DNA of 64,000 nucleotides from Selenomonas timonae (GTDB lineage: Bacteria > Bacillota > Negativicutes > Selenomonadales > Selenomonadaceae). Where the stretch lies: contig NZ_CP060204.1 in the NCBI RefSeq assembly GCF_014250475.1, positions 943,001 to 1,007,000 of the forward strand. The letters run 5' to 3'. Made by a program: the position numbers and the translations under genes. Each line of letters begins with the position of its first letter. The stretch's first letter is position 1. A model generated the notes under the pieces. It was not told the origin of the DNA, did not search any database, and was given only the letters and a program-made list of their open reading frames with translations. This document shows positions 20,596-64,000 of this stretch, piece after piece.

Positions 20596-21942
20596 GTGGC
20601 AGAGGACTACTTTCAGGAGCGGCGGCGCGTGCTGCGCCGCCGTCGCTGGGGCGCGCGTATGGCGCGCATGATGATGTATGCCGTTGTCGCTGAGGCGTTT
20701 CTCATCCCGCTCGCACCGCTGGCGGCGATGGTTGTGCTGCTCCTCGGCTGTGGGGCGATGCTCCTGCGGCTGCGGATCGATCGGAACTTTCATCTGCGCC
20801 GTCTGCCGTATGATGCGCCGGCGCTGCTCTTTGTCGTCATCGGACTCCTGTCCGTGGCGGTTGCGCCGGACAAGGTGTTCAGCTTTTACAATTTCTACCA
20901 TCTCGTGCCGATCTACGCCATGACCTATCTGCTCGTTGGGCAGACCCTGCGCACGGCGCATGAACTGCGGCGCGTTGTCATTGCGATGGCAGTGTCGGCG
21001 GCGCTCGTCATCCTTTACGGCTTCTATCAGTTCATCTTTGGCATCGACATCTCCGCGATGAAATGGGTGGACGGGGCGTCGTTCCCCGAACTCTCGAAGC
21101 GCGTCTTCTCGACGTGGGAGAATCCAAACATCCTTGCGGGCTATCTCGATATCGTCGTCTGCATTTTCGTTGGATTGCTGAGCGCGCTCACGCGCTCATG
21201 GCGCATCCTCGCACTCGTGCTCCTTGTGGCGGCACTTGCCTGCCTCGGCATGACCTATGCGCGCGGTGCATGCCTTGTCGTCGCCCTCGTACTTGCGGGC
21301 TACGGCGCGCTGCGCGACTGGCGCGTCCTCCTCGGGATCGTCGTCGTCGGTGCGGGAGCGCTCCTCGTTGATCCCGTGCTCGCAGATCGTCTGCTCTCCG
21401 TCTTCACGCGTGTGGATACGTCGTCGGAGATGCGGCTTGCGTTCTGGGAGAGCACGATTGCGATGGTGATGGATCATCCCTTCCTCGGCATCGGCTGGGG
21501 CATGTACTTCATGGTCTACCCCGAGTACGACTTCTACTTGCAGGGCGCGCCCGTGCAGATCGTGCACGCCCACAATATGTATCTGAACTATGCAGCGGAG
21601 ATTGGTGTGCCGGGTGCACTCTCCTTCCTCTGGTTCTTCTTCGGCTCGCTCGTGCTCGCCTTTCGTCTGCCGAAGCGCACGCCGCCGTGGGAGGCGGTGC
21701 TCGCCGCGCATGAGCACGAGTGGAAGACCGTTGCCGATGTGCGTGCCGCGCTCGCACGCTGGCGCAGACGCCGCTTCGTCGAGGGACTTTCGCTCGGGCT
21801 TGGACTCGCGTTCATCTCCGTTGCTCTCAACGGCATCACAGATCATCTGCTCTTTAATATACCGTCCTCCATGCTGCTCTGGATGCTCGCCGCTATGACG
21901 GCGGCGGTGCATGCGATTGCGGGGGAGATGAGGGAAGGATGA
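20596..21942 (+). CDS. O-antigen ligase / Wzy-like polymerase family membrane protein
   Basis: A 448-residue multi-pass membrane protein with about ten hydrophobic segments. The Wzy_C/WaaL-type signature is in the second half: LAFWESTIAMVMDHPFLGIG, then a periplasmic loop ending VHAHNMYLNYAAEIGVPG, where the conserved His-Asn lies. Family members join or polymerise lipid-linked glycans on the outer face of the inner membrane. The start is GTG 20596, with GGAGG seven bases upstream. Ligase and polymerase cannot be separated by sequence alone. It lies between folC and rex with a 4-nt overlap into rex. Confidence 0.75.
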   Translation: MAEDYFQERRRVLRRRRWGARMARMMMYAVVAEAFLIPLAPLAAMVVLLLGCGAMLLRLRIDRNFHLRRLPYDAPALLFVVIGLLSVAVAPDKVFSFYNFYHLVPIYAMTYLLVGQTLRTAHELRRVVIAMAVSAALVILYGFYQFIFGIDISAMKWVDGASFPELSKRVFSTWENPNILAGYLDIVVCIFVGLLSALTRSWRILALVLLVAALACLGMTYARGACLVVALVLAGYGALRDWRVLLGIVVVGAGALLVDPVLADRLLSVFTRVDTSSEMRLAFWESTIAMVMDHPFLGIGWGMYFMVYPEYDFYLQGAPVQIVHAHNMYLNYAAEIGVPGALSFLWFFFGSLVLAFRLPKRTPPWEAVLAAHEHEWKTVADVRAALARWRRRRFVEGLSLGLGLAFISVALNGITDHLLFNIPSSMLLWMLAAMTAAVHAIAGEMREG

Positions 21943-22616
21943 CTATGCAGGAACATCTATCGATATCCAAGGCGACGGTCGACCGTCTGCCGCGCTACTA
22001 CCGCTGTCTGCGTCAGCTGACAGACGAGGGCGTGGAGATTGCCTCCTCGGAGGAGCTTGGCCGCCGCCTTGCCATCAACCCCGAACAGATTCGTAAAGAT
22101 TTGGCGTTCTTCGGACAATTTGGCAAGAAGGGCGTCGGCTACTATGTCGCAGAGCTCAAGGAGAGCATCGGCGGCATATTGGGACTCGATCAGCATTGGA
22201 ATGTCGCGATCATCGGAATGGGGCATCTCGGTGCGGCGCTCGCAAACTATCAGGGAATTGCGCGACTCGGCTTCCGACTTGCCGCGATTTTCGACGCGAA
22301 TCCCGTCGTGATCGGCACGCGCGTCGGAGAGCGCCGCGTGGAGGACATTGCCTATCTCGCGGAGATCATCGCCGAGCGTGACATTCAGATCGGCGTCATC
22401 GCCGTGCCCGCAGCGCATGCGCAGGGTGTCGCCGATCAGCTTGTAGCGGCGGGCATTCGCGGGATCTGGAACTTCGCGCCCGTGAAGCTGAGAGTGCCGC
22501 CGAGCATACCGTTTGTCAGCGAAGATCTGTCTGTCGGACTCAGCGCACTCTCGTATTATCTGACGCACACGAGTGCGGAAGACGGGGAGTTATCAGACAA
22601 AAATTTAACGAATTAA
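21939..22616 (+). CDS. rex: Rex, redox-sensing transcriptional repressor
   Basis: A 225-residue Rex. The N-terminal winged helix has the family opening ISKATVDRLPRYYRCLRQL and the recognition segment ASSEELGRRLAINPEQIRKDLAFFGQFGKKGVGY. The Rossmann fold starts at NVAIIGMGHLGAAL, and FAPVKLRVP near the C-terminus is typical. Rex releases DNA when the NADH/NAD+ ratio rises. ATG 21939 overlaps the upstream stop (ATGA); ATG 21945 is equally possible. The propionate locus lies directly downstream behind a terminator and possible Rex half-sites. Confidence 0.95.
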   Translation: MTMQEHLSISKATVDRLPRYYRCLRQLTDEGVEIASSEELGRRLAINPEQIRKDLAFFGQFGKKGVGYYVAELKESIGGILGLDQHWNVAIIGMGHLGAALANYQGIARLGFRLAAIFDANPVVIGTRVGERRVEDIAYLAEIIAERDIQIGVIAVPAAHAQGVADQLVAAGIRGIWNFAPVKLRVPPSIPFVSEDLSVGLSALSYYLTHTSAEDGELSDKNLTN

Positions 22617-22826: not shown

Positions 22827-22987
22827 AGGAATCGCTGATAAAATAGACCCTCAGATTGGCGTAGATTTTTCGTCCGAACTAGGAGGCAAACCGGACGCAT
22901 AGCAAAGAGCTATGTGGAGGATTTGCAGGCGTTGTGCGGGCAAAAAAGATGCGCTAAGATGATGGCGCTGAATTTATCAGTGCTTCC
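22827..22987 (+). repeat. MITE-like intergenic element, copy 1
   Basis: A 161-bp element bounded by 16-bp terminal inverted repeats (AGGAATCGCTGATAAA at the left; the right end reads AGGAAGCACTGATAAA on the other strand, 14/16 identical). It has no coding potential. A near-identical copy lies inverted at 57416-57577. Two internal hairpins (CGTCCG/CGGACG and CATAGC/GCTATG) are kept in both copies. It sits in the leader of the CoA transferase gene. Confidence 0.85.
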
Positions 22988-23047
22988 TACAGGAGCAATG
23001 GACGACGGCGGCGTTTGCTGTCCGGCGTATCAGAGGGAGGTTTTTCT

Positions 23048-24544
23048 ATGATCGATATTTCCGATCGCATACCCAAGTCCCTGATGGACAGGATTGTGAG
23101 CGCGGAGACGGCGGCAGAATACTTTGCCGACGGCATGACCATCGGTGCGAGCGGCTTCACCCCGTCCGGCTATCCGAAGGCAGTCACGCTTGCCATCGCC
23201 GAGCGCATGAAGAAGAATCCGTTCAAGGTGAACATCTGGACGGGTGCTTCGACAGGGCCCGAGCTGGACGGTGCTCTGGCTGAAGCGGGTGGCATCAAGC
23301 AGCGTCTTCCCTATCAGACGAATACGCCGCTGCGCAATGCGATCAACTCCGGTCTCGTGAACTACATCGATATGCACCTTTCCGAGGTGGCACAGCAGTC
23401 GCGCGAGGGCTTCCTCGGCAAGATCGACGTCGCACTCGTCGAGGCGGTTGCCATCACTGAGGAGGGCATCATCCCCTCGACCTCGGTCGGCAATACGCCG
23501 TCGTTCATTCAGAGTGCAGACGTGGTCATCGTCGAGGTGAACACGAGCCAGCCGATGGAGCTTGTCGGCATGCACGATATTTACATTCCTCTCGATCCAC
23601 CGAATCGTCTGCCGATTCCCATTACGAAGGCGGGAGACCGGATCGGAACGACGTTCATACCCTGCCCGCTCGAGAAGATCAAGTACATCGTCCCCTGCGA
23701 CATCACGGACAAGACGCGTCCGCTCGCTCCGCTCGATGATGCGGCGCGCAAGATGGGCGCATTCACGGTCGAACTCCTCAAGAAGGAGATCGCCGAGGGT
23801 CGTATGCCGAAGGGACTCCTGCCCCTGCAGTCGGGCGTCGGCAACGTCGCAAACGCGGTTATCGCGGGCTTTGTGAACTCCGACTTCACGGATCTTGAGG
23901 TCTACACCGAGGTCATCCAGGACGGCATGTTCGACCTTGCGGATGCGGGCAAGCTGAAGTTCGCGTCGGGCACGGCGTTCTCGCCCTCGCCGGACGGTCT
24001 CCAGCGCTTCTACAAGGACATCGACAAGTACAAGAAGATCATGATGCTCCGCCCGCAGGAGATCTCGAATAACCCCGAGGTTGTCCGCCGTCTCGGCGTC
24101 ATCGCGATGAACACGGCGATCGAGGTCGACATCTACGGCAACGTCAACTCAACGCACGTCACGGGCACGAAGATGATGAACGGCATCGGCGGCAGCGGCG
24201 ACTTCGCACGCAACGCCTACCTCACGATCTTCTACACGCAGTCCGAGGCAAAGGGCGGCAAGATCTCCTCGATCGTTCCGTTCTGCTCGCACATCGATCA
24301 CGGTGCGCATGATGTCGATATCGTCATCACGGAGCAGGGCGTTGCGGATCTGCGCGGCAAATCCCCGCGTGAGCGCGCACTCGAGATCATCAACAACTGC
24401 GCGCATCCGGACTTCCGTCCGATCCTGCTCGACTACTACGAGCGTGCACTTGCAGCGACCAAGGGCGCACAGACGCCGCACCTGCTCGATGAGGCGCTTT
24501 CCTTCCATCAGCGCTTCCTCGCGACGGGGTCGATGCAGAAATAA
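23048..24544 (+). CDS. Acetyl-CoA hydrolase/transferase family: succinate/propionate CoA transferase
   Basis: A 498-residue Cat1/ScpC-family class I CoA transferase. In this setting it would swap CoA between succinate and propionyl-CoA (or acetyl-CoA). The catalytic glutamate is predicted to be Glu288 in EVYTEVIQDGMFDL. The glycine-rich CoA site is NGIGGSGDFARNAY near residue 380, and IVTEQGVADLRG follows. ATG 23048 has GAGGGAGG upstream. It heads the propionate locus; a MITE-like element lies in its leader. Exact acceptor specificity cannot be read from sequence. Confidence 0.88.
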   Translation: MIDISDRIPKSLMDRIVSAETAAEYFADGMTIGASGFTPSGYPKAVTLAIAERMKKNPFKVNIWTGASTGPELDGALAEAGGIKQRLPYQTNTPLRNAINSGLVNYIDMHLSEVAQQSREGFLGKIDVALVEAVAITEEGIIPSTSVGNTPSFIQSADVVIVEVNTSQPMELVGMHDIYIPLDPPNRLPIPITKAGDRIGTTFIPCPLEKIKYIVPCDITDKTRPLAPLDDAARKMGAFTVELLKKEIAEGRMPKGLLPLQSGVGNVANAVIAGFVNSDFTDLEVYTEVIQDGMFDLADAGKLKFASGTAFSPSPDGLQRFYKDIDKYKKIMMLRPQEISNNPEVVRRLGVIAMNTAIEVDIYGNVNSTHVTGTKMMNGIGGSGDFARNAYLTIFYTQSEAKGGKISSIVPFCSHIDHGAHDVDIVITEQGVADLRGKSPRERALEIINNCAHPDFRPILLDYYERALAATKGAQTPHLLDEALSFHQRFLATGSMQK

Positions 24545-55487: not shown

Positions 55488-56579
55488 TTGCAAACGATTG
55501 TAGGTGTCCGCTTCAAGGCAGCGGGCAAGATATATTCATTCGGGCAGGGACAGCTGACGATTGCCGAGGGCGATCACGTCATCGTTGAGACGGCACGCGG
55601 CATGGAGTGTGGCAAGGTCGTCATCGCACCGCGTGAGGTGCCGGACGAATCTGTTCCGCCGAATTTGCGCATAGTGCACCGCATCGCGGATGCCTCGGAT
55701 CTCGCCCGCATTGATGAGAACCGCGCGCGCGAGCGTGAGGCACGTACGGTCTGCGAGGAGAAGATACGGGAACTCGGCCTCAAGATGAAGCTCGTCGATG
55801 TCGAGCTCACCTTTGACCTCTCGAAGATGCTCTTCTACTTTACGGCGGATGGGCGCGTTGACTTCCGCCAGCTCGTACGCGAGCTCGCAGGTGTCTTCCG
55901 CACGCGCATTGAGCTGCGCCAGATCGGCGTGCGTGACGAGGCGAAGATGATGGGCGGCATGGGCTGCTGCGGGCGGCCGCTGTGCTGCGCGACCTTCCTC
56001 GGTGATTTCGTGCCCGTTTCCATCCGCATGGCAAAGGAGCAGAACCTCTCGCTCAACCCGACGAAGATCTCGGGCATCTGCGGGCGGCTCATGTGCTGTC
56101 TGAAATACGAGAGCGACGGCTATGGCTGCGGCGGCTGCATGCGTGTGAAAAAGGCGGAGTATACCCCCGCGCAGAACGATCGCGTTATCGCGGAGGACGG
56201 TGAGGGGCGCGTTGTCGCCGTCAGCGAACAGCGGCGTACGGCGACCATCCTCATGGACGACGGGAAAACAGTGATCGCTGCATGGGAGGACATTGCCCGC
56301 GTCGAGGGGGAGGACGGGACACCGCGTACTCATGTGCCGCGCGAGGGACGGCAGCGTCCCCCGCGTGAGGGGCGTATGCCGCGCGAAGGCCGCGAACGTC
56401 GTGAGCGTCCCGCAGGGGCAAAACTGCGCGAGCGCGGGGAACGCAGCGAGCGGAGAGAGCCAGGAGAGCGCACGGAGCGTTCCGCGAAGAATGCAGACGA
56501 GCGCCGCCGTCCGCAGGGCAATCGGCGTCAGCCGCGCCGTGCGCCGCGCGCGCAGCAGGGTGATGAGATCCATGAGTGA
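55488..56579 (+). CDS. ricT: RicT/YaaT-like PSP1-domain protein with Arg-rich tail
   Basis: A 363-residue PSP1-domain protein. The core opens VGVRFKAAGKIYSF. Its Cys-rich signature is MGGMGCCGRPLCCATFLGDF, then GICGRLMCCLKYE and GYGCGGCM. In Bacillus YaaT/RicT works with RicA and RicF on RNase Y. The start is TTG 55488, with GGAGGAAG upstream. The final ~80 residues are an unusual, low-complexity Arg/Pro/Glu/Gly extension containing repeated PREGR, absent from compact RicT; a nucleic-acid-binding tail is likely. It overlaps the next gene by 8 nt. Confidence 0.9.
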   Translation: MQTIVGVRFKAAGKIYSFGQGQLTIAEGDHVIVETARGMECGKVVIAPREVPDESVPPNLRIVHRIADASDLARIDENRAREREARTVCEEKIRELGLKMKLVDVELTFDLSKMLFYFTADGRVDFRQLVRELAGVFRTRIELRQIGVRDEAKMMGGMGCCGRPLCCATFLGDFVPVSIRMAKEQNLSLNPTKISGICGRLMCCLKYESDGYGCGGCMRVKKAEYTPAQNDRVIAEDGEGRVVAVSEQRRTATILMDDGKTVIAAWEDIARVEGEDGTPRTHVPREGRQRPPREGRMPREGRERRERPAGAKLRERGERSERREPGERTERSAKNADERRRPQGNRRQPRRAPRAQQGDEIHE

Positions 56580-57315
56580 GATGGTGCAGCTGCGTCCGAA
56601 CGAGCGGCTTGACGATCTCTGCATGGGCGGACGGCAGATCATCCAGCGCACGGATGAATTCTGTTTCTCCATGGATGCTGTCCTGCTTGCACATTTTCTG
56701 CACATGACGGGGCGTGAGCATGTGCTTGACCTCGGCACGGGGACGGGCGTGATCCCTCTGCTCATTGCGGACAGGGCGCGGGAGATCACGGCAGTGGAAC
56801 TGAATCCCGTGCAGGCGGAACTTGCTGCGCGGAATGTGCGCATGAACAACCTCACAGACAAAATCTCAGTGCGGGAGGGTGACTATCGCGACCCTCCCGC
56901 TCTTTTTGCGTGTGGAGAATATGACCTCGTATTCAGTAATCCGCCGTACCGCCCCGTGACAAGCGGAGCCCTCAGCGTGGGCGCACGCGCAGCGGCGCGT
57001 CACGAGATCACGGCAACCCTCGCCGATACCGTGCGTGCGGCAGCATATGCGCTGAAGCACGGCGGGCGCCTTGCAATGGTGCATCTGCCCGAACGCCTCG
57101 GCGAGATCGTCCTCGCACTTCATGCGGAGGGGCTCGCCGTCAAACGCCTGCGCATGGTACAGCCGCGTGCGGACAAAGCACCGAACCTCATGCTCATCGA
57201 GGCGGTAAAGGGCACTGCGCTCGCGGGAATGCGCCATGAACCTGCACTTATCGTGCGCGACGCGAAGGGGCGGTATACCGAGGAGATCCGCAGCATCTAC
57301 GGGCAGGAGATGTGA
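56572..57315 (+). CDS. tRNA(Val) adenine-N6 methyltransferase (TrmN6/YabB family)
   Basis: A 247-residue class I SAM-dependent methyltransferase. ERLDDLCMGGRQIIQ is the TrmN6/YabB opening, the SAM loop is VLDLGTGTGVIPLLIAD, and the N6-adenine signature is NPPY in VFSNPPYRP. ATG 56572 lies in the end of ricT. It is the last gene of the yaaR cluster, matching Bacillus yabB. Confidence 0.88.
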   Translation: MSEMVQLRPNERLDDLCMGGRQIIQRTDEFCFSMDAVLLAHFLHMTGREHVLDLGTGTGVIPLLIADRAREITAVELNPVQAELAARNVRMNNLTDKISVREGDYRDPPALFACGEYDLVFSNPPYRPVTSGALSVGARAAARHEITATLADTVRAAAYALKHGGRLAMVHLPERLGEIVLALHAEGLAVKRLRMVQPRADKAPNLMLIEAVKGTALAGMRHEPALIVRDAKGRYTEEIRSIYGQEM

Positions 57316-57377
57316 GGAAAACACGGATGAAATCAGCCACATCATCTTGGTGCATCTTTTTCACGCTGTCTGTTCCC
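57315..57377 (-). repeat. Truncated, degenerate copy of the MITE-like element
   Basis: The region from AGGAAAACACGGATGAAATC onwards matches the first ~60 bp of the full copy at 57416, with scattered changes. It starts at the trmN stop codon. It lies in tandem with the full copy. Confidence 0.6.
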
Positions 57378-57415
57378 TAAGGCTTCCATCTGCTAATTTT
57401 TTACCGTTCGACTTA

Positions 57416-57577
57416 AGGAAGCACTGATAAATTCAGCCGCGCCATCTTGACGCATCTTTTTTGCCCGCACTGTGCCCTCGATCCTCCACATAGCCTTGGC
57501 TATGCGTCCGGTTTGCCTCCTTGTTCGGACGAAAAATCTACGCCAATCTGACGGACTTCCTTTTATCAGCGATTCTT
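57416..57577 (-). repeat. MITE-like intergenic element, copy 2
   Basis: A 162-bp element, inverted relative to 22827-22987 and nearly the same throughout. Terminal repeats are AGGAAGCACTGATAAA and, on the other strand, AAGAATCGCTGATAAA. The hairpins CGTCCG/CGGACG and ATAGCC/GGCTAT are preserved. It lies upstream of the autotransporter gene. The remaining intergenic sequence (57578-57741) is AT-rich, with no gene seen. Confidence 0.85.
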
Positions 57578-57741
57578 TAATTATACAATCTACCCCTAAC
57601 GTATTCTCGCAATCCACCATTGTCATTTGAAAAACTTAGATGTATAATTAAAAGATAACGGGGGTTGTTCGATTTTGACTTAAATAAAAGAATGTTTGTT
57701 TTTGTTAAATCGATTGAACTGTATTATGAGGAGGAACTGTG

Positions 57742-60700
57742 ATGACTGGAATGAAGGATCGGCGGCGGCTGGCGCTCTATGTAGCACTCGGTCTCTCTGC
57801 AGGAAGCGGGCTGATGCTCGACGCATCGACGGCGTATGCGCATGATATTGTGCTGGATACAGACCAAACAGGCACATATATTGCCAATGCTGCCGAAGGA
57901 GATGATGTGAAGGTTCGTCAGAATGCTGCGGGGACGACCATTCCGACAATCACCAACGGAGACATCGTTGGCAGTAAAGCGGCAGATGCGAAGAAGATCA
58001 CAGTTACAGTTGACAGCGTCAAAGCGGAGTCTGCGGGCTATGGACGTGTCTACGCAGGCTTTGGGGTAGGGACGGCTTCGAAGAATCATATCACATACAA
58101 CGGGGGTGTAGCAAATGCACTGATCGGCGGTGCAAGCACCTCTACTGTGGCAAATTCGACACATGGTGCAACGGGGAATGTGGTCGCGGTTCATGGCGGA
58201 ACGATCCATAAGCACGTCACCAGCGGCCTTGGCAAAGAATATGCTGCCGTTACTGGGAATGAGGTAACGGTTTCCGGCGGCTCGATGGGGAGTGTGCGCG
58301 GCGGTGTCGGAGGAAATAATGCCTCTGTCACAGACAACGTAGTCACCATTGATGGAGCTTCTACCAACATCAGCAACCAGGTGAGCGGCGGCGTTTCCGG
58401 AAAAAATGCTACGGTCAAGAAAAATACTGTGACCGTTAAAAAGGGGACTCTGGCGAGTGTACGGGGCGGTGTCGGTAAGGAAGGCGCTGCCGTTCGTGAG
58501 AATAAGGTAGTCATTGAGGGTGGTACGGTCAATGACAGGGTTGTTGGTAGTGAGGCAGTACTGCCGACAACGGTTCCTACAGTCGATTCTGCCAGCCTGT
58601 CCAATCACAATACGGTCGTGCTCGGCTCAGATACTGGAGCGTATGCGGCACAACTCTCCAATGCGGAGATCTGGGGCACGCGCTATGGCAATTCCGGCGT
58701 GATTGCAGGCGGTGATGCACGGATTGCAGGCAATACGCTTGAAGTTAACGCGAAGGATGTCTCTGTCAAAAAAGTATGCAACTTCCAGACGTATCAGTTC
58801 AACCTGACGAAGGGTATTGATGAAAATGCCTCCATGCTGACGGTTGTGGATACGCATGGCTTCGGTCCTGGAGCGAATGTGCAGTGGAGTGATATTCAGC
58901 TCGATGCAGCGAAGTGGAATGACGTAAAGAATGCAGACGACAGCAGCACACACTATGGAAAGAGCGGTACGATAACGCTCATCAAGACCTCGGACAGAAA
59001 TCGCCATCTTACCATTCATAATAGTAAGGCTGAGTCGCTGAACAGAACGGGCGTGAGCGGCGATTTTGAGTACAAACTCGCGGCTGACAATACCGATGCT
59101 GTGGCTACGGCAGGCGGATCTATTTCGGTTGCCCGCGTCGAGGCGACGCTGAACCGCATCCAGAATGCAGATGCGGTCTATGCGGGGACTGCGCAGGATG
59201 CAGACAATGCCGTGCGCGGCGGCTATTCCAAATACGGTCATAATGTGACGAAGAACATACTGGAGGTCACCCATCTCCAGACGACGGGACTGAATGCCGC
59301 CTATGGCGGCGAGGTCGCGGGTCTTGTGGGCGCTGTGTTCGGCAATACACTTGACATTACGGGGACGGATGATCAAACGTCACCCACACCCGTAAAACGG
59401 ACACTGGCGAACGCCTATGGCGGTGCGATCACGAACGCAAATAATGCGGGTACGGTCGGCGGAACGGAAGAGCATGCGGGGAATCGTGTAGCTGTCAGCG
59501 GCGGGCAGGTCACGAACGCCTACGGTGGTTATACGGCGGGTGCAGGTAATGTGCAATATAATACTGCTGTAACCGAAGGCAGTGCTGTGGTTGAAAAGTC
59601 CTATGGCGGCGATACTGCAGGGGCGGGGACGGTTCAGAAGAATATCGCATATGTCGCAGGCGGCACGGTGGCGGATGTCTACGGCGGTGCTTCGAGTGGA
59701 AACGGTACAGTTACGGAAAATGTCGTTGCGCTGAATGGTGGCATAACGGGCAATGCTTATGGCGGCTATGCATCGGGCGGCGCGGCAGTCACGGACAACA
59801 GCGTTCGGGTTGAGGGCGGCACAGCGACGGGCACGCTCTACGGCGCACTGTCGATGAACGGAAATGCGGACAATAACAAAGTATTTGTGCGCAGAGGTTC
59901 GGTCGCCAGCGTCACAGGTACGCAGAGTGCAGACGGGAATGTAACGAAGGGGCAGGTCTTCGTTGCGGGCGGTACGGTCACGGGCACGGTCTATGGCGGG
60001 CGCACAACGGGCAGCGGATCGGTTGAGAACAGCCATGTCACGATCACGGGCGGTACGGTTACGGGCACAGTGTATGCCGGTGAAGCGACGGGCAGCGGCA
60101 ATATCAAGAACAATGCCGTGAACCTTGGCGATGAGAGCGTTCATGATCTTACGAATGCGAATCTCAGAGCTGCTGATCTTGTCGGCGGGAGTATCGGTGT
60201 CGCCGGCACCGGCAACATATCGGACAATGCACTGAATGTGTACGCAAAGAACGCCGATGTGAAGTCGGTCGCGAAGTTTGACAAGCATCGCTTCATCCTC
60301 GATCGGGCGATTACCGACGGCGCGACGATGCTGACCATCGATCAGGGCGGTTTCGGTCGGGAGATCGACTGGAATAGCGTTGTGGTCGAAAACGAAGCCG
60401 CGATGATGAAGGACGGCAATCCCGGCGGCAGAGTTACGCTTGCGGCGGGAACTGCAGCAGACGATTTGAAGGTTGCGGGCTATACGAAGCGTGACCATAC
60501 AACTGAAAATACTGAGCACGTGATCGAGTTGGATCCGGATACACTTGCCGAGGCAGCAGGTGCAGGGAATCACGCAACGGCAGAGTCGCTTCTTCTCACC
60601 TACGCGAAGTTCAAGGACAATACATGGACATATGACGGCGCATTGACTAGCCCTACGAGTGAGGATAATGAGGTGTTCGGCGGCATCTCCTACAAGGGAC

Positions 60701-63700
60701 ATACGACCGAGAACAATACGCTCGTGGTGAAGGGCGTCCCAGATGGTGGCCTTGCGGCGGCGTATGGCGGCAAGACAGCGGCGGGGGCGGCGAATTCGAA
60801 GAGCAACCATGTTGTGATTCAGGGAACCATGCCGCAGACGAACGCTGCGGTTGGCGGCATCGACGAGGTCTATGGCGGCTATACGGTGTCCGACTATCAG
60901 GCTGACCGCGAGGGCGTCGCCATCGCGGGCGTTGCCGAGGGCAACGATGCCGTCGTTTACAACGGAGTCGTGGATAATCTTTTCGGCGGCTTGGCAGACG
61001 GGAACAAGGGCAAGGCACAGACGAACAAGGCTATCGTTGGTGGCGGTACGGTAACGAACGTCTATGGCGGTGTAGCGACCCAAACAGACGGCACGGCGAC
61101 CGGAAACAATGTCTTTGTTTACAACGGCACGGCGACAAATGTCTACGGCGGTGCTGTGAACGATGTGACCGGCGCGGCGACAGAGAATCTTGCCGAGATT
61201 CGCGGCGGCACGGTGACGGGGGTGATTGCAGGTGCGCGCGCTGCATACGATACGGCGGCGACAACGCATAAGCTCTCGAACAAGAACACGGTCAGACTCG
61301 GTGAAGCGAATGCGACCCGCGCACTGCCTTTGCAGATCGCCGATACCGCGGTTTATGGTACGCATTATCAAGACGCGACAACAGGTGTGGAGTTGACGTT
61401 TGCCGGCGACAGCGAGGCTATTCGCGGCAACACGCTCAACATCACAACGACGGGCGTATCCATGAAGAAAGTCCGCAACTTTGACAAGTATCAATTCACC
61501 ATTGGCAATAACTTCCAAGACAACGATGAGATGCTGACGCTCTCGGAGGCAGGTGGATTCGGTACGGTTTCCGGCACTCTTCCTGCGGCTCCCGTCAAGA
61601 TCGACTGGACGAAGGTTTCGGCGGATACAAGTCAGCTCCTTGCGGGACGAGGCGAAGGCATTCACGGAAAAAATCAAATGATAATGATGCAGGTGCGTGT
61701 GCCGCACCAGACACCGCCCCCTGCATACACTACACCGAAGGATCTCCATTTTACGGGCTATACAGATACGGCGGGGATTGCAGACATCGACCGTGTTTAC
61801 GAAAAGAAGCTCTCGACGGATGCGGATGCTCCCGCTGTGGGTAGTACGGAAATCAATGCAAGCAAGGTTCTGCTTGCGCTGAACCGTTTCCGTGACGATA
61901 CAGTGACGCACAGTGGTGCGGCAGTCCCGTCCGGCGAGATCTACGGCGGATACTCTGCCTACGACCATACGGAGAAAAATAAAGACGGGCATGACGTCAT
62001 TGTTGGAACGACGACTGAGAACAATGTGCTGAACATCACAGGCGTTGCAAACGGAACCAGTAACCTCAAAGCCTATGGCGGCTACACGGCGGGTGTCCGT
62101 GGTGGCTCGGAAAACAACACGGTCAATGTGGATGTGACGAATCTACCAAACAATGTGGCATCGGGTGAACTTTACTCCATCTACGGCGGCTATGCAAAGG
62201 GTGCGAATGCAGGTGTGGTGCGCGGCAATACGGTGCGCTTCTCGCAGGGGGCAACACTCAAAGACCTTATGGGCGGCTACATCGACACCTCGTCTGTTCC
62301 TGCGGGGACCGACAAGACTGCGTCGGATGTCGTAGAAAACCGCGTGTTTATCACGGGGGGGAAAGTCGGTGGCTCTTATGAGCATGGAGGTGTAACGACC
62401 ACCTACACCGGTAGTGTATATGGCGGACGTACTGACGGCACGGGCAGTGCACGGAAGAATGAGGTCTATGTCAATGCCCCGATCGTAACGGATGCGGCGA
62501 CGCCACCTGCCCGCGTAGCGACTGTGAACGTTGACAAGCTGGTCGGCGGCTACGGTGCGACGGCAGTGGATAATGACGTCACAATCCTTTCAGGTATGGT
62601 CAATGGCACGATCTACGGCGGCTATGCAACCACGGCAGGTATCCCTGAAGTACCGGCAACAGCCACAACTCCTAAGAAGCTGGAAGTCTCCGCACTGCGC
62701 AACAACAAGGTGACGCTCGGTCACGACGTTGTGATCACGGGCGATGTCTACGGCGGCTATGCCGATGCGGATGCGTCGAACATGACCGCAGCGACGGACA
62801 GCAACACGATTGCTCTCTATGCGGCACGGATTGACGGTGTGCTCTACGGTGGCATGGCAAAGAATGCTGCGGGCGATATGATTTTGAGCGGCAGGAACAA
62901 CACTCTTGCCATCTATGAGCGCGGCGCAAAGGCAGCTGACTTTGCCGGCATCCAGAACCTGCATTTCTACCTGCCGGCGGGAACGACGGCAGACCCCGCT
63001 GCAGAGACAATGCTACGTCTGACGAAGGCGACGGATCTGACGGACGGCAAGAAAGACCTCTCGAATGTGAACGTGGGCGTTGCACTCGCAGGCAACCGTC
63101 CGACGCTGCACGTCGGCGATACCGTCAGTCTGATGAAGACGTACAAGGTGGACGGCGGCAACAGCAAGGCGGTCGAGATCGCGAATGCGCCGAGTCTCAC
63201 CAATGCAGAGGGGATGCACGGCATCAGTCTGCGCTACAAGTTCAACCTGCTCACACGTGAAGCTCTCAACGAGGCGGATGCCACGACTACGAACGCAGAT
63301 CACAAGCACAACGAGCTTGTCGCCGAGGTGGCGGGCATTGAGGTGAATGACCAGACGAAGTCCCTTGTGGAGACGCGTGCCGCGACCACGGCGATGATCA
63401 ACAGTGCGGCGGATCTCCTCACGGACAACGGATTCCGTGCGGCAGAGGAGGCCATCTCGGCGCAAAACCTTTCCGCGAAGGCGGCGAGTGTCGCAGCAAA
63501 TGCTGTCGCAAACAATGGATTCCAGATGTGGGCGGCGCAGGGCGGCTCCTCAATGCGCCTCAACTCCGGCTCGTACGTCGACGCGAAGGGCTGGAATCTG
63601 AACCTCGGCTTTGCCAAGCAGAAGGTTGCGGGACGCAACACGCTCACCTACGGCCCGATGATTGAGTACGGCAGGGGCAGCTACGACTCCTATCTCGACG

Positions 63701-64000
63701 ACGGTACACACGGCGACGGCTCGATGGACTACCTCGGTCTGGGCGTGATGGCGAAGTCGAAGAATGAGAGCGGTCTGTATGTCGAGGGAAGTCTGCGCGC
63801 CGGCCGTGTCAAGAGCGACTACAGCGGCAATATCGACAACACCGGCACCACCTACGACAGCAGTAGCACCTACTACGGCATCCATCTCGGTGTCGGACAG
63901 GAAAAGGAACTGAAGGGCGGCGACACGATCGACACCTATGCGAAGTATTTCTACGCGCATCAGGCGAGCGATACGGTGAAGATAAGCACGGGCGAGACGT
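57742..64000 (+). CDS. Giant autotransporter (type Va), C-terminus beyond the window
   Basis: An open frame of at least 2,086 codons runs past the right edge. A signal peptide covers residues 1 to about 34 (ending TAYA). The passenger is a beta-helix built of short repeats (about 20-30 residues) ending in V-Y-G-G or A-Y-G-G, such as GGTVTGTVYGG and GNAYGGYASGG. Three modules opening AKDVSVKKVCNF-type (about residues 334, 834 and 1234) break the helix into blocks. From about residue 1930 (FQMWAAQGGSSMRLNS) the outer-membrane beta-barrel domain starts: alternating strands such as KGWNLNLGFAKQKV and GLYVEGSLRAGRVKSDY. ATG 57742 follows AGGAGGAAC. An adhesin role is usual for such proteins. Confidence 0.88.
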   Translation, partial: MTGMKDRRRLALYVALGLSAGSGLMLDASTAYAHDIVLDTDQTGTYIANAAEGDDVKVRQNAAGTTIPTITNGDIVGSKAADAKKITVTVDSVKAESAGYGRVYAGFGVGTASKNHITYNGGVANALIGGASTSTVANSTHGATGNVVAVHGGTIHKHVTSGLGKEYAAVTGNEVTVSGGSMGSVRGGVGGNNASVTDNVVTIDGASTNISNQVSGGVSGKNATVKKNTVTVKKGTLASVRGGVGKEGAAVRENKVVIEGGTVNDRVVGSEAVLPTTVPTVDSASLSNHNTVVLGSDTGAYAAQLSNAEIWGTRYGNSGVIAGGDARIAGNTLEVNAKDVSVKKVCNFQTYQFNLTKGIDENASMLTVVDTHGFGPGANVQWSDIQLDAAKWNDVKNADDSSTHYGKSGTITLIKTSDRNRHLTIHNSKAESLNRTGVSGDFEYKLAADNTDAVATAGGSISVARVEATLNRIQNADAVYAGTAQDADNAVRGGYSKYGHNVTKNILEVTHLQTTGLNAAYGGEVAGLVGAVFGNTLDITGTDDQTSPTPVKRTLANAYGGAITNANNAGTVGGTEEHAGNRVAVSGGQVTNAYGGYTAGAGNVQYNTAVTEGSAVVEKSYGGDTAGAGTVQKNIAYVAGGTVADVYGGASSGNGTVTENVVALNGGITGNAYGGYASGGAAVTDNSVRVEGGTATGTLYGALSMNGNADNNKVFVRRGSVASVTGTQSADGNVTKGQVFVAGGTVTGTVYGGRTTGSGSVENSHVTITGGTVTGTVYAGEATGSGNIKNNAVNLGDESVHDLTNANLRAADLVGGSIGVAGTGNISDNALNVYAKNADVKSVAKFDKHRFILDRAITDGATMLTIDQGGFGREIDWNSVVVENEAAMMKDGNPGGRVTLAAGTAADDLKVAGYTKRDHTTENTEHVIELDPDTLAEAAGAGNHATAESLLLTYAKFKDNTWTYDGALTSPTSEDNEVFGGISYKGHTTENNTLVVKGVPDGGLAAAYGGKTAAGAANSKSNHVVIQGTMPQTNAAVGGIDEVYGGYTVSDYQADREGVAIAGVAEGNDAVVYNGVVDNLFGGLADGNKGKAQTNKAIVGGGTVTNVYGGVATQTDGTATGNNVFVYNGTATNVYGGAVNDVTGAATENLAEIRGGTVTGVIAGARAAYDTAATTHKLSNKNTVRLGEANATRALPLQIADTAVYGTHYQDATTGVELTFAGDSEAIRGNTLNITTTGVSMKKVRNFDKYQFTIGNNFQDNDEMLTLSEAGGFGTVSGTLPAAPVKIDWTKVSADTSQLLAGRGEGIHGKNQMIMMQVRVPHQTPPPAYTTPKDLHFTGYTDTAGIADIDRVYEKKLSTDADAPAVGSTEINASKVLLALNRFRDDTVTHSGAAVPSGEIYGGYSAYDHTEKNKDGHDVIVGTTTENNVLNITGVANGTSNLKAYGGYTAGVRGGSENNTVNVDVTNLPNNVASGELYSIYGGYAKGANAGVVRGNTVRFSQGATLKDLMGGYIDTSSVPAGTDKTASDVVENRVFITGGKVGGSYEHGGVTTTYTGSVYGGRTDGTGSARKNEVYVNAPIVTDAATPPARVATVNVDKLVGGYGATAVDNDVTILSGMVNGTIYGGYATTAGIPEVPATATTPKKLEVSALRNNKVTLGHDVVITGDVYGGYADADASNMTAATDSNTIALYAARIDGVLYGGMAKNAAGDMILSGRNNTLAIYERGAKAADFAGIQNLHFYLPAGTTADPAAETMLRLTKATDLTDGKKDLSNVNVGVALAGNRPTLHVGDTVSLMKTYKVDGGNSKAVEIANAPSLTNAEGMHGISLRYKFNLLTREALNEADATTTNADHKHNELVAEVAGIEVNDQTKSLVETRAATTAMINSAADLLTDNGFRAAEEAISAQNLSAKAASVAANAVANNGFQMWAAQGGSSMRLNSGSYVDAKGWNLNLGFAKQKVAGRNTLTYGPMIEYGRGSYDSYLDDGTHGDGSMDYLGLGVMAKSKNESGLYVEGSLRAGRVKSDYSGNIDNTGTTYDSSSTYYGIHLGVGQEKELKGGDTIDTYAKYFYAHQASDTVKISTGET

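Follow-up and report, generated by a model that had tools for sequence, protein, structure and literature searches.

The window, which is the whole 64-kb stretch of DNA analysed here, holds a short hairpin-forming sequence in two copies, raising the question of what kind of element it is and whether its fold is maintained by selection. An earlier note on this DNA had placed the copies near 22827-22987 and, inverted, 57416-57577. Genome search and covariance model locate copy 1 at 22828-22987 on the plus strand, and copy 2 is found at 57417-57576, where the forward strand of the element is the minus strand of the window; both are 160 bp long. Global alignment of the two (22828-22987 against 57417-57577) gives 140 identical columns of 163, and they score 172.8 and 172.9 bits (E about 3e-41) with a covariance model whose training sequences include both of them. 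The matching terminal repeats reported earlier were recovered as 15-bp sequences with 0 or 1 mismatch, GGAATCGCTGATAAA on the left of copy 1 (22828-22842, plus strand) and GGAAGCACTGATAAA on its right (22973-22987, minus strand). Copy 2 is flanked by a perfect TTAA duplication, seen in the sequence at 57413-57416 and 57577-57580, and the flanks of copy 1, CATA and TACA, form an imperfect one. The truncated copy said to lie beside copy 2 is also real: this relic at 57319-57378 (minus strand, in the orientation of copy 2) consists of 60 bp from one end and reaches a local score of 56, against a highest score of 36 among 1000 shuffles; it is absent from the covariance-model matches in the window. 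Reading frames inside the element are small and overlapping, the longest being 77 aa. Copy 1 has on its left an ORF for a CoA-binding domain with a putative DNA-binding N-terminus (21939-22616) and on its right one for an acetyl-CoA hydrolase/transferase (23015-24544), and copy 2 comes after a methyltransferase-domain gene (ORF 56293-57315).

The element is not confined to these two places. A search of its own genome (2.35 Mb, one contig) returned 41 matching rows at E up to 0.01 with 72-100% identity, one of them the opposite strand of an adjacent row, which leaves about 40 copies. The rows extend to within two bases of both ends in 33 of 41 cases, and the ends are sharp in an alignment of 30 fetched copies. 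A search of 60 genomes, the own one among them, gave matches in 17: the own genome, the remaining 13 genus members, and G029, G031 and G045. Scanning 14 genus genomes for both ends with 116-146 bases between them gave 560 copies, from 0 to 108 per genome, and the same pattern reversed, used as the control, gave none in these genomes. An exact 25-base pattern from one end occurs in 74 stretches across seven named genomes, six of Selenomonas and that of Centipeda periodontii, all of them oral bacteria. Of 146 distinct copies, 83 lie between exact 4-bp duplications; 200 re-pairings of shuffled flanks gave 15 on average and never more than 24. The target of IS5 is YTAR. The exact duplications include TTAA (26), CTAA/TTAG (17), TATA (13) and TAAA/TTTA (13), the last two deviating from strict YTAR. 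There is also a nested insertion: in genome G011 a copy lies within an insertion sequence (IS) with TTAA doubled (L093), and other copies of the same host IS (L060, L080, L086, L091 and L095) retain the empty site with a single TTAA. The many copies, sharp ends, target duplications and nested insertion with its empty site thus bear out the view of the earlier note that this is a MITE, an assignment we make because the element is short, has terminal repeats and duplications, is dispersed in many copies and has ends matching those of an autonomous element. Shorter forms also occur. The 14 genus genomes hold 33 derivatives of 32-62 bp, and three loci of the own genome (L172, L186 and L178, at G000:C1:77433-77468, 89321-89345 and 1275949-1275983) consist of 25-36 bp that are almost only two facing terminal repeats; derivatives of both size classes may have arisen by deletion at the hairpin base, or may themselves be mobile.

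The autonomous partner was sought with DDE_Tnp_1 and DUF772, which gave 8 and 7 matches in the own genome, including two IS-like loci with ends GGAAACACTGATAAATTC (or a variant of it) and GGAATCACTGATAAATAG and with TTAA/TTAG flanks of the YTAR type. A third IS-like locus, L061, is partial and has one such end. Both of the best own-genome IS copies have an internal stop in the transposase, so that mobility in this genome at present is no more than possible. G002, G005, G006 and G007 hold versions of the IS that keep both ends and a frame open over 343-350 codons, and the uninterrupted 332-aa transposase of L077 matches NF033581 (IS5; NCBIfam) with 304.8 bits against a cut-off of 140. The IS is about 1.24 kb long and has its 15-18-bp ends and its target in common with the MITE. 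By eye, the resemblance is confined to these outermost 15-18 bases at each end, which rules out the MITE interior as an internal deletion of the IS5-family IS. Many known MITEs likewise have an interior that does not derive from an autonomous element. The earlier note had described an element with no transposase inside that would be moved in trans; given the shared ends and target, it is therefore probably a MITE moving in trans, with an IS5-family transposase most likely acting on the Selenomonas copies, although what stands as found is the match of ends and target and the nested insertion with its empty site, and the role of this transposase in the movement is what we infer from it. In two loci, L060 (G000:C1:1730275-1733808) and L182, the IS5-family IS is itself inside another transposase gene (Transposase_mut, PF00872, 269.5 bits) with a further end-like site about 1 kb upstream, a case of nested mobile elements.

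Folding of the strand beginning GGAATCGC turns the whole element into one long irregular hairpin. Of the two small hairpins proposed earlier, the inner one is present, but as the tip of this single structure: it corresponds to the apical stem-loop CGCATAGC / GCTATGTG of copy 1 (22896-22916, plus strand). The innermost hairpin part of copy 1 (22879-22934, plus strand) spans both sides of a conserved internal-loop motif, whose 3' side deviates here from the family consensus. The predicted RNA fold of copy 1 has an energy of -67.9 kcal/mol on the forward strand (z -6.7 relative to shuffles) and -46.0 on the reverse (z -3.5); for copy 2 the values are -63.9 (z -6.1) and -36.1 (z -0.5). The forward strand folds better in all 143 distinct copies, with a mean of -74.4 versus -47.8, this set including at least four copies from outside the genus (L042, L043, L045 and L057). 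RNAalifold on 31 diverse copies yields 45 pairs, 17 of which are altered on both sides. The stem-edge change that had first suggested selection, from CATAGC to CATAGCC, is weak evidence alone, but a double change in the apical stem, from CATAG/CTATG to CAGAG/CTCTG, is carried by 7 of the 31 sequences.

The same fold extends well beyond Selenomonas. The covariance model R1, used in a class survey with up to 9 candidates scored per genome, matches 78 of 300 sampled class genomes (own included) and 29 of 97 genera; in a closer look at 24 positive genomes it matches all 24, with 1 to 117 matches each. A model of the core without the ends, R2, matches 24 of 398 phylum genomes (own included) from 19 of 266 genera, and 18 of these 24 lie outside the class, the E-values of both models being rough. 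Among the distant elements examined, the forward strand folds better in 46 of 47, and the remaining one, L274, has equal energies on both strands as printed for its full length. The terminal repeats change with the lineage. Selenomonas copies have ends of the form GGAA.C.CTGATAA and 4-bp duplications; copies in G015 end in GGGCGTGTTGATTAA and are flanked by TA left and right in 19 of 20 fetched cases, corresponding to a 2-bp TA duplication. The distant elements bring further end types, among them GGTGCTGG, GGCCTTGT and GACCGCAG, with GGGCGTGTCTGA in G627 and GGGACTATCAA in G602, some of them seen in single or few copies. In G637, three of the four copies examined end in AGTACTCTGT, and the fourth has a different end around a core of the same kind, which fits an exchange of ends around a constant core. 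Some ends may have drifted rather than been exchanged, as the common inner half of GGAACCGCTGATTAAATGA and GGGCGTGTTGATTAAATGA suggests. A search for the partner IS of the GGGCGTGTTGA type found ends with no adjoining transposase and many ends near contig starts, and no partner IS was identified for the other terminal-repeat types.

When the core is considered on its own, in an alignment of 43 sequences of which 5 come from the genus, 91.2% of 1501 cells are paired, compared with 70.4 after shuffling, and both partners have changed in 33 of 35 pairs. The covariation score is 0.604, against 0.216 for shuffled alignments, a control that leaves relatedness in place, and 0.101-0.147 for slid ones. 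All 43 of these diverse sequences fold better on the forward strand, with a consensus energy of -33.4 versus -5.3. The strongest sequence conservation lies in the internal-loop motif, C.AGG on the 5' side opposite ACG..G on the 3' side, and unpaired positions in the loops rank with the best conserved of the core. At three internal loops both sides read GA, in 28, 24 and 15 of the 43 sequences respectively, which suggests tandem G-A pairs; in Selenomonas, our reading of the folds would space these loops about one helical turn apart. The proposal that structure is under selection is supported by these double-changed pairs and by the consistent preference for one strand.

The element thus has the hallmarks of DNA transposition, ends in common with IS5-family IS, and a covarying fold that is specific to one strand. 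We consider it probable that it is a non-autonomous DNA transposon, a MITE of about 160 bp mobilised in trans by an IS5-family IS, with a conserved core under selection for its RNA fold. The Selenomonas element, whose terminal inverted repeats are 15-18 bp long and whose target is centred on TA, would be moved by an IS5-family transposase acting in trans, and its interior would be a conserved element of its own rather than an IS remnant. The fold would be kept by paired changes and by tolerance of G-U on one strand across a wide set of Bacillota, with ends that vary by lineage. It would act as RNA when a neighbouring promoter reads through a copy, and would favour survival of the element; the simplest routes would be that insertions into transcribed DNA between genes do less damage, or that the fold binds a host or transposase protein. 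Both the RNA function and the benefit to the element are inferred. More tentatively, and as a possibility to which we do not quite lean, the family could be a phylum-wide selfish element in which the RNA hairpin core is constant, the transposon ends are replaceable, and the core has passed between 4-bp YTAR and 2-bp TA systems.

The position of the copies relative to genes and replication bears on what the fold could do. With crude gene calls, 129 copies comprise 38 sense, 42 antisense, 19 convergent, 20 divergent and 10 undecided cases (17 of 146 copies being omitted for short flanks), and none was called within a gene. The distant set of 44 comprises 12 sense, 17 antisense, 2 convergent, 5 divergent and 8 undecided cases. 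A preference of the forward strand for transcript sense was rejected, as neither set has an orientation bias. Promoter-like and terminator-like sites do not exceed their frequency in shuffles, which gives no support to an own promoter or terminator; the sole terminator-like site inside the element, in copy 2 at 57541-57553 on the forward strand, has 5 pairs, with 0.6 expected in the region. Nor is there a replication-strand bias: 39 of the 41 rows, counted after setting aside the opposite-strand duplicate and a fragment of 38 bases, split 18 to 21 (p 0.75), with origin and terminus placed roughly from GC-skew samples. A role tied to replication is disfavoured by this split, and a host role in cis by the absence of copies within genes and of an orientation preference.

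Could the fold matter as single-stranded DNA, in replication or transposition, in the manner of IS200/IS605 or REP hairpins? DNA folding parameters favour the same strand in 142 of 143 copies, and G-T and tandem G-A pairs are tolerated in DNA too, which counts for this explanation. On the other side, terminal inverted repeats with 2- or 4-bp duplications, as this element has, point to a DDE double-strand mechanism, and the even split with respect to replication is not what this explanation leads one to expect. We regard it as unlikely.

A second alternative is that of an ordinary MITE whose DNA palindrome is decaying, with the paired changes arising from hairpin-templated correction between the arms at replication. 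In agreement with this explanation, the element as a whole is palindromic, if imperfectly, many of its copies are hit by the model on either strand, and the orientation to genes is unbiased. A decaying palindrome should, however, lose its pairing equally on the two strands, yet one strand is favoured by 143 of 143 copies and by 43 of 43 cores, and arm-to-arm correction would not explain the conserved unpaired loop positions. The wobble pairs argue in the same direction. Counted over 61 pairs of the forward folds, there are 7369 Watson-Crick cells, 954 G-U, 81 A-C and 184 other combinations. Choosing pairs in this way favours G-U, and the count was hence repeated with strand-neutral pairing, which over 80 positions gives 7309 Watson-Crick, 892 G-U, 484 A-C and 2603 other. 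For the core, G-U exceeds A-C by 186 to 24 on the 35 forward pairs and by 39 to 29 on the 22 pairs of the reverse fold, so that the asymmetry is smaller when the pairing does not favour the forward strand (892 versus 484, 39 versus 29). It is still 26 to 9 on the 18 pairs found in both folds (binomial p 0.006, with cells that are non-independent), and the decaying palindrome does not account for this excess. In columns of the strand-neutral pairing with a Watson-Crick majority, variants of a single copy are G-U in 9 cases and A-C in 20, and those shared by at least two copies are G-U in 24 and A-C in 14 (Fisher p 0.014, only a guide since the copies are related). We read this contrast as suggesting that new changes have no G-U bias and that propagated changes do. 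On this evidence the decaying palindrome seems quite improbable.

That the element is a domesticated cis-regulatory RNA, serving host genes as a terminator, RNase site or stabiliser like ERIC in Yersinia, is the most doubtful explanation and very unlikely, because despite the absence of copies called inside genes (0 of 129, with crude calls) and the influence of ERIC and NEMIS RNA folds on adjacent mRNAs, as described in PMC2229807, the orientation to genes is inconsistent, terminator-like sites are not above shuffles, and species of the genus differ in pattern copy number (0 to 108).

Returning to the MITE with a selected RNA fold, we compared it with known systems. REP/RAYT uses a Y1 transposase. 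Its elements are palindromes of 20-40 bp with a GTAG or CGTC tag, according to PMC3733652, and this identity is ruled out for a 160-bp element with terminal inverted repeats and target duplications. Among the closest known systems are IS5-family MITEs and IS5 itself (NF033581): the element has the 15-18-bp ends of a local IS5-family IS and a YTAR-type target, but beyond the ends its sequence, compared by eye, differs from that of the IS and so did not arise from it by simple internal deletion. PMC2229807 already describes bacterial MITEs with long RNA stem-loops, as well as an orientation-dependent effect of ERIC on mRNA. ERIC/IRU, Correia/NEMIS and RUP resemble the present element, going by the same text, in their length of 100-200 bp, terminal repeats, TA termini and long stable RNA stem-loops; they have other hosts and are set apart here by published description. 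Unlike ERIC, NEMIS and RUP, the Selenomonas-type element keeps one fold in numerous genera of a phylum, with terminal repeats that differ. The bcr1-bcr3 repeats of the Bacillus cereus group are likewise intergenic, MITE-like and often within transcripts, according to PMC3446304, but their mobility is tied to a TTTAT motif (PMC6542083), a comparison made by description only. Finally, PMC11109978 counts 250 mobile or repeat candidates, a class marked by inconsistent gene orientation. The single candidate of the 250 compared here, MRSC-65-2, is described there as one long covarying stem in dozens of copies per genome, its RNA or DNA form being left open, but it differs in a conserved UYCCGG repeat, which none of the 143 copies of the present group and none of the 43 diverse sequences contains.

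Our literature search met no published description of the element, though one may exist in print. MITEs with RNA stem-loops are thus a known kind, and what is new, as far as could be seen, is the class- and phylum-wide core, the variable ends and the strand bias. Bacterial MITEs are often taken as empty IS shells; here the shell varies and the inside is conserved, so that selection at the RNA level on the hairpins of small bacterial repeats, and the question of who benefits, become open to test. The Rfam search of the window at the gathering score gave no match, and in 14 loci searched at E up to 1 the matches lie solely outside the element, so that it matches no known RNA family there; the family could join Rfam. 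One of the surrounding sequences, L266 at 10-254, resembles a T-box leader, with 86.6 of 93 bits, slightly below the Rfam gathering score.

Two further observations concern the surroundings of copies. In the window, the frame at 57742-63999 is open through all 2086 codons up to the window's end and has no Pfam match at E 0.001; its start resembles a signal peptide by eye, and it perhaps encodes a giant surface protein. Elsewhere in the genome, a 39-bp end-to-end derivative (L176 701-739, G000:C1:697469-697507) lies between tRNA-Asn and tRNA-Gln in a nine-gene tRNA cluster.
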